Source: Gyrodactylus bullatarudis
Taxonomy: Eukaryota; Platyhelminthes; Monogenea; Gyrodactylidea; Gyrodactylidae
DNA length: 64,000 nt
Direction of reading: 5' to 3'
NCBI GenBank assembly: GCA_012064415.1
Contig: SSNU01000327.1
Coordinates: 213,984-277,983 of the forward strand
The translations under genes were made by a program, and so were the position numbers. Below the pieces are notes generated by a model that was given only the letters and a program-made list of their open reading frames with translations, had not been told where the DNA came from and did no database searches. Shown piece after piece: positions 3,501 through 12,500 of this stretch; the first letter of the stretch is position 1, and the number at the start of each line of letters is the position of its first letter.

Positions 3501-6500
3501 TGATACAATAACCTTTTCGATTTTCATTGGCTTATGGGCAATGCGCCTGTTCCAGAAACAGAACTTTTTCAAGATTTCAAAATCAATTTTTTAGAAGATT
3601 AAATTTATTATAGTGAATGTTAAGCTATTCTTGATTAATTAATGATTTTTATGAAAATCTCATCATTATAATTTTACATTTCAAAATCCGAATCAATAAG
3701 CAAAGTTTTACTGCAATGACTGCAATGACCAATAAGTGTCGAACAAATCATTATTACGTGTTAAACCCTATGGGGGAATGGTAAATTATCAGAATATACC
3801 TAGAATACACCGAATTCTCCATATTCACTTCTAGCAAGATCTTTCATGAATTAAGAGACAAGATGAATAGAGAAGAATTCCTGTGGGATATATTACCTAA
3901 CACCTAGAACGAAATATTTCTAGAAGAGAAGAATTTATTGAGTTTGGATCAGAAAAAACTGGTGCACTGGTTTGTTATGACTTGGAAAATTAAACTCGAA
4001 ATATAGATCATAATCATATGGAGTTAATTTTTCACAACAAGAATATTGAGTTAGAGACTAGACCCCAAACATTATTGATCCCTCTGTTAATGTACATTGT
4101 TAATGGTAGTATTTTTGAAAATAATTTTAAAACAATAGAATAATTAGAATAAACAATAGAAACCGAAATTAAAAAAACCAATTGTTAGGACTTAAGAAAA
4201 TTAATTTTAAAATTGAATTGCAATCTAATTATTTAAAAAAAAGAATTTTACTGAACCTCTTTTGAAGTATTGACATACAGGTGAGTATGGAGAATTCGGT
4301 GTATTCTAGGCATATTTTGATAATTTATCATCCCCCCATAGGGTCCAACACATAAAATTGATTTGTTCGACACTTATTGATCATTGCAGTCATCCCCCCT
4401 GAAAAGAAAATTTTCGCTGAATTTTTTTTGAACCTAAAAATCTTTAAAATTGATATTTGTATGTAGAATTTAGATTTAGCAAATCTGGCTTTATTTTTTT
4501 AATACTAATTTAAATATTTATTCAATACGACTCATTTTTTCAGTATATAAATTAACTCTCGACAATCGCGAAGAAGAAAACGTAATGGAAGCCGACTTCA
4601 ATGGATCAACAGTAATGTTCAAAACTGACAAAAGAACTGTTTCTTTCGATCTTTCTCATGCTTCTGCGACTGTTTGGAGAAAAGAGAAAGAAATCCTTTC
4701 GATAGTTTTTATCCATGCTGAAATGAAAGAAAAATTTTCAGCATTCTTGTCATTTACTCTAGCGCCCTTAGTAGGTTGTAGGCGAAACATAGAAACGTTT
4801 TACGATCAAATGAGGAGAATTTTTTGTAAGTCAATTTCATTGTTAAAAAATGATTTTCTTAAGAACCTTGAATAAATCATAACTCAACAGTAATCTCTGC
4901 CAAGGTTATGGTTAATATTTCCAGCATTCACTTTCGACTACAACCTAAACTTACCATTTTTTAAATTTAAGATATAGACCTATCCGGATATTTTTTCTCA
5001 TACATTACATCATCTGATGAGGAAAATTGTTTAGAAAGAGAACATTTGATGAGAGTCACCTATATTAATGATAATAGAAACTGTAAATTCGCTGCTTGGT
5101 TCTTTTTGCACGAACAGGAATTTTTCGTAGGCGAATTTGATATTACGAATTCAGTGATCAATTGCGCTAACGATTTAATTACTATTGAAAATGCTGTTAA
5201 TGAAAGTGAAAAGTTTGAAATTGAAATAACAGCAGACAATTTACAAACCATCTTTGAGGAAATAAGTAAGATAAAGCTTAATTTCTACTTTTGATTTTTA
5301 GTTTAGTTGAATTATTTTTAAAATTTTTGTTTTATAACATGGTTTTTATTTTCTGATGACGAAGGTAACTTCATAAGGAATTAGAAGTCAAGTGAATATT
5401 TAGTGATTAAGCTTATATTTCACCGGATCTCATCAGACTATTACACCGGCTTGATATTTATATTAAATTTTAGAGCATATGAAAATTCCTCTTATTGGTT
5501 GAAATGGTTTTTAGGGTTCAAACATAGGGGGTGAGGGTTGATTAAAATTGTAATAGTCTCCAGGGTTAATTGAGTTATCTTCTCTTCACGAATTCATCCA
5601 TCGATAATTGCCCACTGTATCTTTTTCGTTTTTTCCCTCTTTTTGTGTTGTTGGGAGGGAGGTTTGGTTTCTCTGTACTAGCATTAATTACGGGCTGAGA
5701 CTTGATTTGATTACTAACTTCAGTTAGCTTCTCCTGGTTTGCACTTCCATTCTCACTTGTAATTGTTGCTGGGGCAGAGACATCGGGTTGATTGCATTCA
5801 ACTACTTGCTCGTTTGATTCACTAATTGGTTTTGCATCAACTTTTTGGCTCTCTGCAGCTTGGGTTGAAGAACAAAGAGGTGGGTCATTGAGGATTTTAG
5901 AAACCTTTGCAAGCTTTTTCATCATTTTGAATCGTTCCTTTCCTTCATAGCCTAACTTTGTAGCTAGCACTTTTTGTTTGCACAGGACAGGTTCGAGTTT
6001 GTTTATAAAGTGGGCTTCCGCCTTACTCAGCTCTTTTTCCCTGACCGGACGTGGATCATTTGGGTTGGCCTGGTAGAGGATACTGAAGTTGTTCACATCT
6101 GCCGTGTGATTTGTAGCTTCAAGATGCTCCTGAACTGCTGACCCCTTGTTCCCCTTAGTCAAATGTTCCTTGAACCTTGCTTTCGCGGGTCTCACTGTTT
6201 GTCCGACGTACGATGCACCACATTTGCACTTGAACTGGTAGATCACCCCCTTTCTTTCAAGCCAGGGTATCTGGTCCTTGTTACGATCTGGTAACAGCTT
6301 CGTTGTCTTATTTAAGATTTGTAGTCTGTATCCAGGGAACGCCTTCTTTGTTACCTCCTGCAGCTTGTTGTTCAGTACTTGATGGGCAGCATCTCCTTTG
6401 AACGGCACTTTCAGGTAGATTGGAGTCAGCTCCTCGACATCATTTTCGGCTTTCTGTCGCAAACTTGAATGTTTTTCTATGAACGCCTCAGGGTACCCAT

Positions 6501-9500
6501 CTATCATTAGCAACTTCTTCAGAATCTCTTTGTCTTCAGATTTTTCCGCTTCGGACGTTATTCTTTCTATTTTCAAAAACTCGTTTCTGACTAGACTTTT
6601 CTTCTGACACGCGGGACTGTAACTCAAGAAGGGCAAGAACTGCGTTGGTACTGATTTCTTCCTGTAGATTCTCGTTTGAGCTATTTCGTTCACTTTCGTC
6701 ACAAGAACATCTAGGAAATTCAGGGAACCCTCATCTTCCTCTTCGGACGTGAATTCGATATTTGGATGCATGTTGTTCAACTTATCCAAGATCATCTTTG
6801 TATCGGCATTCTGATCAAGAACTAGGAAGGTATCGTCTATGTATCGGGAGTAAAGGCGACATTCAACAACCAAATCATTCATCTTGCCTAATTCCAGTGA
6901 TGCGAGGAATATATCAGCAAGCAGTGGACCGATTGGACTACCCATCGCGACTCCATCGATCTGTTTGTAATAATTGCCACAAAATTTAAAATCAATATTT
7001 TGAACGGTCATCATGATCAGGTCCGAAATAACGTTAGGAGGAATTCTGCAAATAGATGGTAATGTGTTAAGTTTCTCACTTATAAACTCGACCGTTTCTC
7101 TTAATGGCACTTTTGTAAACAATGAGCTAACATCAAAGGACATCATTTTGGATGATTCAAAGTTCACGTCTAGTAGTTTGGCCACAAACTCCACTGAATT
7201 TTTCACCGAATATTTACACAACTCATTTCTCAGGGGGGTCAAGACTTCGGTTAGCCATTTTACCAATTTATGCTGCGGAGTGGCTGACATGTCGAGAATT
7301 GGTCGGTATTTCGGTATGGTTTTTATTGTTAAAATTTTTACAAAAAAAGTTATGGAGTCAATCGATGTTATCCTTTTTAAAAAGACGTATCTTCATTCAC
7401 AGGGGAATGTTTCAGTAAGCATAGTATTTATCGTTGCTGTTAAAAATTATTTTCCGAGAATTTTCCACGTTTTCGGTAATACTGAAACAGGTCTTGAGTT
7501 AGAATATTACTAAATACAGAAGAGTAAAAATTGTATAAATCATTTTATACTAGTTTTCGTAGATAATACAATCAGTATTTTTATTGGGTTAATTCCAAAA
7601 ATCTCCCCAAAAATCACCCCAAATGAGAAATTTTTCCAAAAATCTCCCCAAAAATCACCCCAAAGCAAAGAATGACCCAAATGAAAATTTCAGATCTTTT
7701 ACTCATTTCAGTTATAAATAACAGCGAATATTCTTATTTTAAAGTTTTCCTTTCTACTTTTTCATCACAATTATCTCCCTCAATACTATTAATTATAATT
7801 AGAATCAATTAGCTGATAAAATTAGATTTACAGGTAAAAGCTCTGTAAAGTGACACGACTTGTGTGAAAATTGAAGTGTAACTTTCACTCCAATTTGTAC
7901 CAATAGAATTGCGTTTTTGTTGGGCCAATCAGAATGGAGCAATATTCTTCAGAAAAAATATTACCAAGTATAATATGTTTCAAGGAATGTCCTTGTTTTA
8001 CTAGATTTTTTAGATAATCTCAACTTATATTTCTGATTAATTTCCACTTCCAATTATCTTTCTATCATACCAGGAAGTAGCTTTAGCAAAGAGAGCTAAG
8101 ATATTAACCTGATGCACTAAATTTTAGTATCACTAGATTCTGCGAAAAATTCAGAGTCAATGGGTAAAATTTCAACCCTTTATTTAAGAATTTGTGGCTA
8201 CAACTTAGTTTTAAAATTTGTACGAGATTAATAATTTCAATATATTTATTTTTCTCCATCATACATAATCACAGGATGTGTCATCCGTTGTTGAATGCTC
8301 GTATAATGTGGGTGTGTGTGTGTGATGTACATTGATATGTGAAAAGATGTCAATCATAGCTTGAATCTCCCCCCTTCCCTGCAATACTTTTGTAATGCCT
8401 TTTTGTTTGTCAAACCTTTTGTGTATCACGTTCTTTTTCCCATGCATAAACCTATGTATCCCGTCTTAAAATTTGGGGGAACTCAGAGAGATAGACAGAC
8501 ACACATTGACATGACTAATTTAAAATAAGATTGTATAGTAATAACATTTTATTGAAAATCATATACAGTCGAATTTAAGATAGGTGTCTTAGTAACAAAA
8601 TCTAGATTTTTCAAAATATTTGCTGATCTTTTTGTCATCCATGAAGACTTATCATGCGAATACTTAATCTTGTGTAATATATCTGGCCTGTTTTTGAAGC
8701 ATCTTGGGTTCTTATGCTTCCCAATAATCCAAAGTTCCTCTTCTGTCCAGTAGCACTCACTGCGACAACGAGAGTGAATCTAACTTTGGATTTCTTACGC
8801 CAAAATCTTTAGATCCTTTTTTGGCCAGGACTTTTGAAAAGAAGTTGTAAACATAAAGACCCGCTTCATCAAGGTTCCAAAGTTGTTTTGGTTGGTAACC
8901 TTCAGTCACTGATGGAAGAGCATCTCGAAATGCGGCTATTTTTTCGAGAGGGGCATCCAACTTATCACCACAAGGCTTAAAAGTCATAAAAACTAACTTA
9001 CAGCTCTAACAACCAATCTATGTCTTTTTTTTGAAGTTTTTGTAGAATGATTTGCTTACCCGAAAAAATACTCCTTTAGAAACAGCTATTTCCTTACCAA
9101 TCAGTTCCAAATCGTCATTACTAATATTTGAAGAAATCAGCTGATTTATTCTCTCATTGATTGAGGAAGATATTTCACTTCTAGAAAGAAGACGCATTTG
9201 CCTGTCTGCTGAGGCTTCCAAGATGACTGCTTTTTTTCAACAGTTTTGTTAACTGTACTAGGCGGACAATTGAAAACACATGATAAAAATTGAGCATAGA
9301 GAGTTATAAGCTGTAACCTTTCTGGTATAGAAAGATAGCAACCTATTCGCTAAAATTTACAATTAATTTTTCTATTTTAGTTTTAATATAAATGTTAAAA
9401 CTTACTTTAGCTTTGAAAAACCTTAAAAAGCGACATGTAAAGTTTTCAAAAATAGGGAAATGGACTTTTCTAATCCAATCGATAAGAATCTTATCCCTCC

Positions 9501-12500
9501 AATATCCAAGCTCTTTGAGATTACTACTGATAACGAGTAATAGATTGAAAATCCTTTCTTGATATTCGTTCTTGAAAAGTTCGGAAGAAACCAAATCATA
9601 ATCTTTCAAATTCTTGAGAATTGCGATATTATGGTCAGGAAATCTCTGTATCAACTCATCGTAAGTCAACTCTGGAAATCTTCGTTCAATATCAAGTTTT
9701 CGCTTAAAAAAAATTATATCGAGCCGAGGAAACATCAATGAACAGCGATATAACTGCTGCCCTACAAACTCATTTACGTTGACAAGAAGGAATACTTTAT
9801 AATCCAGACTTTGATTGAGGGTGAAGAAAAACATGAGTAAATCCTTCAAGATGTAATACTGGTTCTTCACGCGAACTGCATGTAATCCGGGGATAGAATT
9901 ATTGGCAAAACTTATGGAATTTGACAATTGGGAATCAAATCGTGCTATTCTTACAGTCAGGAAGAAATTCTCCTGTTTTCTGTAAAAGTCAGTGCGTAGA
10001 TAAAAGAATTTACATAACTCCTCTTCTGATGAACCCGCAAAGTACAAGATATTGGTAAGTTTCTTATCCTCCTGAAAAATATTTTTTAATGAGTAGTTTG
10101 ATCATCGAGCCTTCAAACTTATGTTGAAATTTTGAATGTTGTGGTCTTTCAAAATCCGAGAAACGTAATGAGATTCACCATACAAACGTGATAAATTTCG
10201 ACTATGGGCCACAACATCTACGATGTCACGGACATGTCTTGCCTCAATAACTTCATTTCTATTGAGCTTGAGCTCCTCTACTTGCTCGTCAATGTGTTCA
10301 TTAAGGCGTTGGAATCTATTGGCATAATCATATCCAATATTTGCTGCGATACGAGAAGATGCTTTCTGCCAAATATATATAGCTGACGGAAACTTCATAT
10401 TTGTTAGCTATTACTTTGGCTGAATGATTTGTTTCATTCATTTCTTCAAGAATCTCTAGTTTCTAGACAATTAACCTACTAGCAAAGTGTGGTCACTGGT
10501 AATTACTATATCCATGTGAAGGATCCATAGCCAGGATTCGAACCCAGGTCTTCAACGTTGCGAGACGTAGTGGTTAGAAGCGTTGCCTCACAACGTTGAA
10601 GACCTGGGTTCGAATCTTGGCTATGGTGTACTGACGAGTCCTAATAAGGACGAAACGCGTCTACATCTGCCACCGTGAGTTGAATATTATTCGACTCTCT
10701 TATGGAATTGACACTTGCTTATCCGAATTTCTAAAATCTAGGTGTGAGAAGACAATCTCCATCAAGTTAGAGTTCACATGGATATAGTAATTACCAGTGA
10801 CCACACTTTGCTAGTAGGTTAATTGTCTAAAAACACTGTAATCTCTAGTTTCTGTTTGTTTGTATACAGCATGGCATAATCAAGATGAATGTATGACGAA
10901 AAGTTATTCTAAAATAGTCATGTCAATGTGTGTCTGTCTATCTCTCTGAGTTCCCCCAAATTTTAAGACGGGATACATAGGTTTATGCATGGGAAAAAGA
11001 ACGTGATACACAAAAGGTTTGACAAACAAAAAGGCATTACAAAAGTATTGCAGGGAAGGGGGGAGATTCAAGCTATGATTGACATCTTTTCACATATCAA
11101 TGTACATCACACACACACACCCACATTATACGAGCATTCAACAACGGATGACACATCCTGTGATTATGTATGATGGAGAAAAATAAATATATTGAAATTA
11201 TTAATCTCGTACAAATTTTAAAACTAAGTTGTAGCCACAAATTCTTAAATAAAGGGTTGAAATTTTACCCATTGACTCTGAATTTTTCGCAGAATCTAGT
11301 GATACTAAAATTTAGTGCATCAGGTTAATATCTTAGCTCTCTTTGCTAAAGCTACTTCCTGGTATGATAGAAAGATAATTGGAAGTGGAAATTAATCAGA
11401 AATATAAGTTGAGATTATCTAAAAAATCTAGTAAAACAAGGACATTCCTTGAAACATATTATACTTGGTAATATTTTTTCTGAAGAATATTGCTCCATTC
11501 TGATTGGCCCAACAAAAACGCAATTCTATTGGTACAAATTGGAGTGAAAGTTACACTTCAATTTTCACACAAGTCGTGTCACTTTACAGAGCTTTTACCT
11601 GTAAATCTAATTTTATCAGCTAATTGATTCTAATTATAATTAATAGTATTGAGGGAGATAATTGTGATGAAAAAGTAGAAAGGAAAACTTTAAAATAAGA
11701 ATATTCGCTGTTATTTATAACTGAAATGAGTAAAAGATCTGAAATTTTCATTTGGGTCATTCTTTGCTTTGGGGTGATTTTTGGGGAGATTTTTGGAAAA
11801 ATTTCTCATTTGGGGTGATTTTTGGGGAGATTTTTGGAATTAACCCAATAAAAATACTGATTGTATTATCTACGAAAACTAGTATAAAATGATTTATACA
11901 ATTTTTACTCTTCTGTATTTAGTAATATTCTAACTCAAGACCTGTTTCAGTATTACCGAAAACGTGGAAAATTCTCGGAAAATAATTTTTAACAGCAACG
12001 ATAAATACTATGCTTACTGAAACATTCCCCTGTGAATGAAGATACGTCTTTTTAAAAAGGATAACATCGATTGACTCCATAACTTTTTTTGTAAAAATTT
12101 TAACAATAAAAACCATACCGAAATACCGACCAATTCTCGACATGTCAGCCACTCCGCAGCATAAATTGGTAAAATGGCTAACCGAAGTCTNTTTCTGAAG
12201 AATATTGCTCCATTCTGATTGGCCCAACAAAAACGCAATTCTATTGGTACAAATTGGAGTGAAAGTTACACTTCAATTTTCACACAAGTCGTGTCACTTT
12301 ACAGAGCTTTTACCTGTATTATCAAAAAAAAATCAATATATTTGGGGTATAGTAATTTGTGACTCATTCATAGAGTGATGGAGGGGTAGGAGAAAAATTT
12401 ATAATTTGATGAGATTATCATTGAGATATTCGTTATTATTCGAAACATGTCTTCACTAACGAGTCGGTCTCAGTTACGAAACCAAAGAAATTTAAAAAAT

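Follow-up and report, generated by a model that had tools for sequence, protein, structure and literature searches.

Hammerhead ribozymes carried by tRNA-related SINEs are known from Sm-alpha and Sj-alpha (PMC2770079, PMC4918200). These Schistosoma elements share with the one described here a tRNA-related SINE joined to a hammerhead, many dispersed copies and a flatworm host (PMC2770079); the preliminary description of the present locus had proposed an undescribed kind of element, a claim that these SINEs take away. The available part of that account makes no mention of head-to-head insertion with a one-sided tail, and the likeness we draw is one of plan. Metazoan non-LTR retrozymes are likewise reported to have a type I hammerhead, RNAs of ~170-400 nt, tandem copies and larger target-site duplications (TSDs) (PMC7229834). 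They are described as seemingly lacking promoters or a motif that would reveal a helper (PMC7761336), whereas the family analysed here, family A, has A and B boxes and a helper-type insertion pattern. Finally, Penelope/Poseidon elements share inverted partial copies, partial tandems, a tail of ~30-40 nt at one end and priming of both strands (PMC3846280, PMC11167929), an inverted partial copy with a 31-bp tail being given as the typical Penelope structure (PMC3846280). In vitro, a Penelope-like element (PLE) protein is reported to cleave and extend both strands, using two adjacent internal starts with the tail lying between them, and this tail-giving, dual-strand, two-start-site reaction is termed unique to PLEs (PMC11167929). 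Unlike PLEs, the SINE encodes no RT or endonuclease. The tRNA-hammerhead plan, retrozymes, PLE tails and inverted pseudo-LTRs are already known, then, and the new part is the fold-back of the SINE; a search of titles and abstract starts in the open-licence PMC literature found no link of retrozymes or SINEs to the PLE tail.

The window, that is the whole stretch of 64,000 nucleotides of Gyrodactylus bullatarudis DNA that was analysed (contig SSNU01000327.1, positions 213,984 to 277,983), has a GC content of 0.285-0.363 in 4-kb windows and belongs to a genome of 77.3 Mb; for gyrodactylid genomes, 67-91 Mb and 31-39% GC are reported (PMC12677651). The RPN2 protein encoded in the window is closest to that of Schistosoma curassoni (54%). 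The features of the copy in the window and of the neighbouring PLE are as follows, where m gives the position in the family-A monomer (the reference monomer carries one extra T):

5347..7312, minus strand: neighbouring PLE copy, RT ORF 5575-7392, with a 12-bp duplication ATGGTTTTTATT
10451..10464, no strand: left target-site duplication AATCTCTAGTTTCT, paired with the right copy
10465..10520, minus strand: outer piece of the left arm, inverted monomer m331-276, without tail
10525..10564, minus strand: inner piece of the left arm, inverted tRNA-like half m129-90
10568..10839, plus strand: right arm, covering monomer m71-342; its 5' truncation falls within the A box, and at the 3' side it stops short of the tail
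10568..10577, plus strand: A box, right half only, its consensus broken at the fold-back junction
10607..10616, plus strand: B box GGTTCGAATC
10625..10667, plus strand: type I hammerhead with short helix III, predicted cut after 10661 (RF00163, 26.6 bits)
10827..10835, plus strand: AC-rich zone CTAAAAACA (m330-338), where reverse transcription starts without a tail, used by many family members
10840..10853, no strand: right target-site duplication AATCTCTAGTTTCT

The inverted ends and the 14-bp direct repeats outside them (10451-10464/10840-10853), both recognised in the preliminary description, are confirmed: the outer arms (10459-10520/10773-10834) span 62 nt at 98% identity, and the inner arms (10525-10564/10587-10626) 40 nt at 95%. 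The tRNA half is indeed repeated inverted, as the 40-nt arm, but this is no clean mirror, with m130-275 (146 nt) missing between the outer and inner pieces of the left arm. The outer ends of this copy lie at m331 and m342; the terminal start site was used by neither, and there is a tail at neither end. No ORF of 180 aa or more lies within 10451-10853, and the ~369-nt element lacks the RT and GIY-YIG ORF by which a PLE is recognised; it is not itself a PLE, and is PLE-like only in its insertion. Other near-perfect inverted pairs in the window stand without a long target duplication (37543-37845/38225-38527, 1279-1431/2150-2302 and 19002-19127/19271-19396).

The hammerhead of the window copy is of type I, as had been claimed, and is matched by RF00163 at 26.6 bits (E 2.5e-4 in 501 bases) against a gathering score of 34; a whole-window Rfam scan at the gathering score listed no hammerhead. 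Compared with the Rfam consensus, helix III of this copy (GAAACGCGUC) lacks 2 nt, with no loop left; the short helix probably explains the low score, and "complete" was therefore too strong a word. The cut predicted after 10661 (m164) agrees with the end of the GUC. Of the promoter boxes, the B box is intact, with its core GTTCGAATC beginning at 10608, while only the right half of the A box survives at the fold-back junction. The consensus for an A box is TRGCNNARYGG; in relatives, the A box TGGCCTAGTGG fits it in 19 of the 24 mapped pieces that reach it, and the B box is found in 38 of 51 family-A pieces. The hammerhead directly follows the tRNA-like part. ARAGORN found no tRNA in the window or in 21 loci, and Rfam gave no tRNA match for the window copy or the loci scanned; judging by the boxes in the tRNA-like head, the element would be transcribed by pol III. 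Rfam scores of miRNA type on the inverted tRNA half (mir-345 at 32.3 bits, cut-off 65; mir-1473; MIR5643) are an effect of the inverted repeat. The copies lend no support to the idea that self-cleavage is a step of insertion: the cleavage site is read through in 62 mapped family-A pieces, and an end within m160-170 was seen in 4. Hammerhead mutants are reported to leave PLE insertion unaffected (PMC11167929).

A search of the genome with the element gave at least 183 matches (best 40 of 930 candidate places scored), and the core pattern CTGANGAGN{8,14}CGAAACGCGTC occurs at 126 exact places, against 0 for the reversed pattern; the view of a many-copy, non-autonomous retroelement whose tRNA-like head is joined to a hammerhead is upheld. 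The family-A monomer of ~369 nt, which the flanks of the copies reveal to be longer than the unit first proposed, consists of a ~70-nt leader, the tRNA-like part, the hammerhead, a unique body and the AC-rich 3' end TTATTTACAAA. It has the make-up by which retrozymes are recognised (a non-coding monomer of 170-400 nt, a type I hammerhead and a TSD). RF00163 itself has at least 57 matches in the genome, 29 of them over the cut-off (best 73 of 11,180 candidates scored); places above the gathering score are mostly, and the 30 matches that were fetched (L061-L090) all, members of a second tRNA-hammerhead family, family B, with a different tRNA-like head and a ribozyme near the Rfam consensus. A variant such as CTGAGGAGTCTCAATAAGGACGAAAC (L049, L051 and other core-pattern places) matches the SINE only around the ribozyme and is possibly a third hammerhead family. 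Family A was sampled at 60 loci, namely the 30 best matches and, going through the contigs in order, the first 30 hits of the pattern, which is not a random sample; merging of overlaps left 48 stretches, in which 59 insertions, including short fragments, were mapped. The family-B sample comprises 35 clusters in 30 loci.

The fold-back is a trait of the family, common to many copies in the genome. Adjacent pieces of family A lie head to head in 27 cases among the 59 insertions, tail to tail in none and on the same strand in 23; for family B the corresponding numbers are 19 (18 distinct places, L080 and L090 being one), 0 and 7. A TSD of at least 11 bp (11-16 bp) encloses 16 of the 27 head-to-head insertions of family A, compared with 0 of 698 swapped flanks, so that further copies with duplications of their own, as sought by the preliminary description, do exist. 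Around the insertions that are not head to head, such a TSD was seen in 2 of 31 (swapped flanks 1/924); a recognisable duplication is rare in these and usual in head-to-head insertions. As the duplication encloses both arms, the pair must in those 16 insertions have been laid down in one event. The 14-bp flanking repeat of the window copy is not due to chance, given the result for the swapped head-to-head flanks and given that none of the 10 pairs tested (in 9 tests) among the 14 other inverted pairs of at least 60 nt in the window has a flanking repeat longer than 8 bp.

The 3' ends of family A fall into two classes, with 46 at m361-370, 34 at m326-350 and 0 at m351-360, the remainder being scattered; trimming at the duplication shifts single ends by a few nt, and two then fall at m356 and m360. 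There are, accordingly, two classes of cDNA start ~35 nt apart, and we call the last ~35 nt the tail; family B and the resident PLEs have two end classes as in family A. Predicted folds of the 3' ends would place hairpins near the start sites in some RNAs. To count tails we used a filter, set after the data had been seen, that keeps pairs with both outer ends at or beyond m300 (family A) or 270 (family B). It retains 21 of the 27 family-A pairs (in the 6 dropped, one end lies elsewhere), of which 15 have one tail, 1 has it on both arms and 5, the window copy among them, have none; for family B it retains 11 of 19 pairs (eight dropped), 10 with one tail and 1 with none. The inverted pairs of the resident PLEs have exactly one tail in 6 of 6. 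Taken together, with the filter applied to the SINEs, 31 of 38 pairs have one tail (binomial p 1.2e-4 against 0.5), while the SINE pairs alone give 25 of 32 (p 0.002) and family A alone a p of 0.047; with no filter the counts are 18/27 for family A, 11/19 for family B and 35/52 with the PLEs included (p 0.018). Two tails occur in only 1 of the 38. This pattern would follow if a single RNA offered each site once, whereas two independent RNAs should give two tails more often.

The edges of the duplications also carry a trace of priming. Over 32 ends of 16 insertions, microhomology to the element RNA amounts to 2.41 nt per end, with 3 nt or more at 15 of the 32. A control with swapped ends gave 0.69 nt, which is too lenient, as the TSD finder itself pulls in matching bases; we therefore used simulated insertions that had no priming homology and were passed through the same finder, and these gave 1.21 nt (sd 0.25, max 2.0), with 0 of 300 runs reaching the observed value. 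The first four bases of the duplications are rich in A (34 of 64) and their ends are rich in T (34 of 64), as expected if target strands ending in T pair with A-rich RNA. By comparison, the PLE in vitro is reported to start at a site that shares no homology with the cut DNA (PMC11167929), in contrast to the slight microhomology in the SINE copies.

A candidate helper is resident in the same genome. Most of the named sequences among the 120 listed relatives of the window PLE protein are from flatworms (Trichobilharzia, Dicrocoelium, Sparganum, Spirometra, Schistosoma, Paragonimus and Heterobilharzia); three come from bins labelled as bacterial MAGs, and the majority are nameless. A 222-nt query from the 3' end of the resident PLE gave at least 42 matches (best 40 of 778 candidates scored), with opposite-strand pairs within 3 kb at six loci, all head to head and with ends at 219-222 versus 180-192. 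Single PLE copies have duplications of 13 bp (L091) and 12 bp (window copy), and the one head-to-head PLE copy that was read for it (L092) has no clear duplication, the best being 8 bp. The resident PLEs encode RT and have hammerhead-like 3' motifs: after the ORF, the 3' ends of L093-L106 show a conserved motif like CCGGG-GTAGAGTCTGATGAGA-CCCGG-CGAAATATAACG in 11 of 14 by regular expression and, on visual inspection, in 13 of 14; L099 has what looks like a compensatory change (CCAGG/CCTGG). The motif is probably the minimal PLE hammerhead; Rfam did not list it at E values up to 1. The neighbourhood of the window copy also contains an inverted duplication (7242-8528/10904-12190) of 1,287 bp and 99.8% identity, with a 2,375-bp spacer that includes the SINE; one of its breakpoints falls within the PLE copy, and a stretch of 127 bp (11477-11603) is found again at 12192-12318.

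LINEs provide the comparison. The 3' region of one LINE family, the only one used as a control and again with the 40 best candidate places per query scored, gave at least 46 matches (best 40 of 187 candidates scored); of the 45 non-self matches, 34 have their end at q492-531 and 11 stop earlier with no pattern, and there are no opposite-strand pairs within 3 kb among the listed matches. Alu is a SINE mobilised by L1, with a pol III head like a small RNA, non-autonomous and target-primed; family A differs from it in having no poly-A tail, in its overlapping inverted arms and in its two classes of cDNA start.

Head-to-head inversions flanked by target duplications are also a product of L1-style twin priming, in which a LINE enzyme works on one linear RNA, and LINEs of the APE type are present in the genome (PF14529, 90 matches). 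Classical twin priming gives arms that do not overlap, however, whereas in family A every one of the 15 one-tail pairs has arms that share part of their element coordinates; the LINE family tested has no inverted pairs, and the tail is reported as unique to PLEs (PMC11167929), and so we consider this route quite unlikely. In another reading, a target-primed cDNA folds at the tRNA-like head and primes its own second strand, giving an inverted copy. Such self-priming has been proposed for Penelope palindromes (PMC3846280), and here the joins are at the heads, with 5' ends peaking at m61-70 near the tRNA-like part (16/96). It requires, however, that the arm with the tail always reaches further 5', and in the 15 one-tail pairs this was the tail arm in 7, the other arm in 7 and neither in one; moreover, microhomology to the target shows when the two ends are pooled. 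We regard this folding of the cDNA as unlikely.

Direct family-A copies join exactly at m370|m1 in 13 loci, and such seamless junctions fit a circular or multimeric template, as would be expected of a retrozyme spreading through a circular RNA made by its hammerhead, with the fold-back as a later rearrangement; animal retrozymes are reported to make circRNAs (PMC7229834). A multimeric RNA explains these wrap-around junctions equally well, and a circle rather than a multimer may be read into them; we count them for the PLE machinery, as they resemble the partial tandems of PLEs. Circularity alone does not yield two end classes, and the duplication encloses both arms, which means that the fold-back was formed at insertion, making a later rearrangement very improbable. 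Least credible of all is a fold-back or MITE-like DNA transposon that captured the tRNA-hammerhead sequence: the window copy, with its long inverted ends and flanking repeat, does look like one, but its relatives have no fixed termini and include arms of variable length, single copies and wrap-around direct repeats. Against insertion by a PLE stand the absence of a tail at either end of the window copy and the lack of detectable similarity between the SINE 3' ends and 15 resident PLE 3' ends (plus-strand blastn, best E 0.88); with no shared 3' sequence, recognition would need structure or A-richness. The weaker one-tail count obtained with no filter, the rarity of duplications around insertions that are not head to head and the absence of a clear duplication at L092 also speak against it.

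We consider it quite likely that the element is a ~369-nt non-autonomous hammerhead SINE inserted by PLE machinery and primed from both target ends, the insertion pattern of the copies pointing to a PLE as the enzyme. Anatomy, duplications, two end classes and microhomology are there in the copies, and the resident PLEs have the same pattern; the family combines two starts 30-40 nt apart with the extension of both strands in one TSD (16/27), the marks of PLE insertion. Template switching, the origin first suggested for the fold-back, was a fair guess; a better account of the copies is that both 3' ends of a single staggered break primed reverse transcription, in view of the microhomology at two ends, the two start classes ~35 nt apart, the overlapping arms and the lack of bias towards a longer arm. 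In such a reaction the PLE endonuclease would make a staggered cut in AT-rich DNA, and the two exposed 3' ends would pair over a few bases with A-rich sites in the element RNA; typically, one of these would be the terminal site (m~356-370) and the other would lie ~35 nt further in (m~317-342). Both primers may sit on one RNA. Extension of each primer would proceed towards the 5' end of the RNA, and the cDNAs would then be joined head to head, giving the fold-back and the 11-16 bp duplication.

The chances seem about even for a more specific model, a PLE-dependent SINE: one PLE complex, which might be a dimer, primes both cut ends, and the two A-rich sites that it uses belong to the same RNA molecule. 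If true, one mechanism would account for the one tail per pair, for the SINE fold-backs and for the inverted pseudo-LTRs seen in PLEs. Short SINE inserts hold both junctions of a single event within one small piece, and insertion scars, read in place of sequence motifs, would be direct evidence; the count of end classes can be applied to schistosome, mussel, coral and salamander genomes. If the model holds, PLEs would be the movers of Sm-alpha-type elements and of animal retrozymes.
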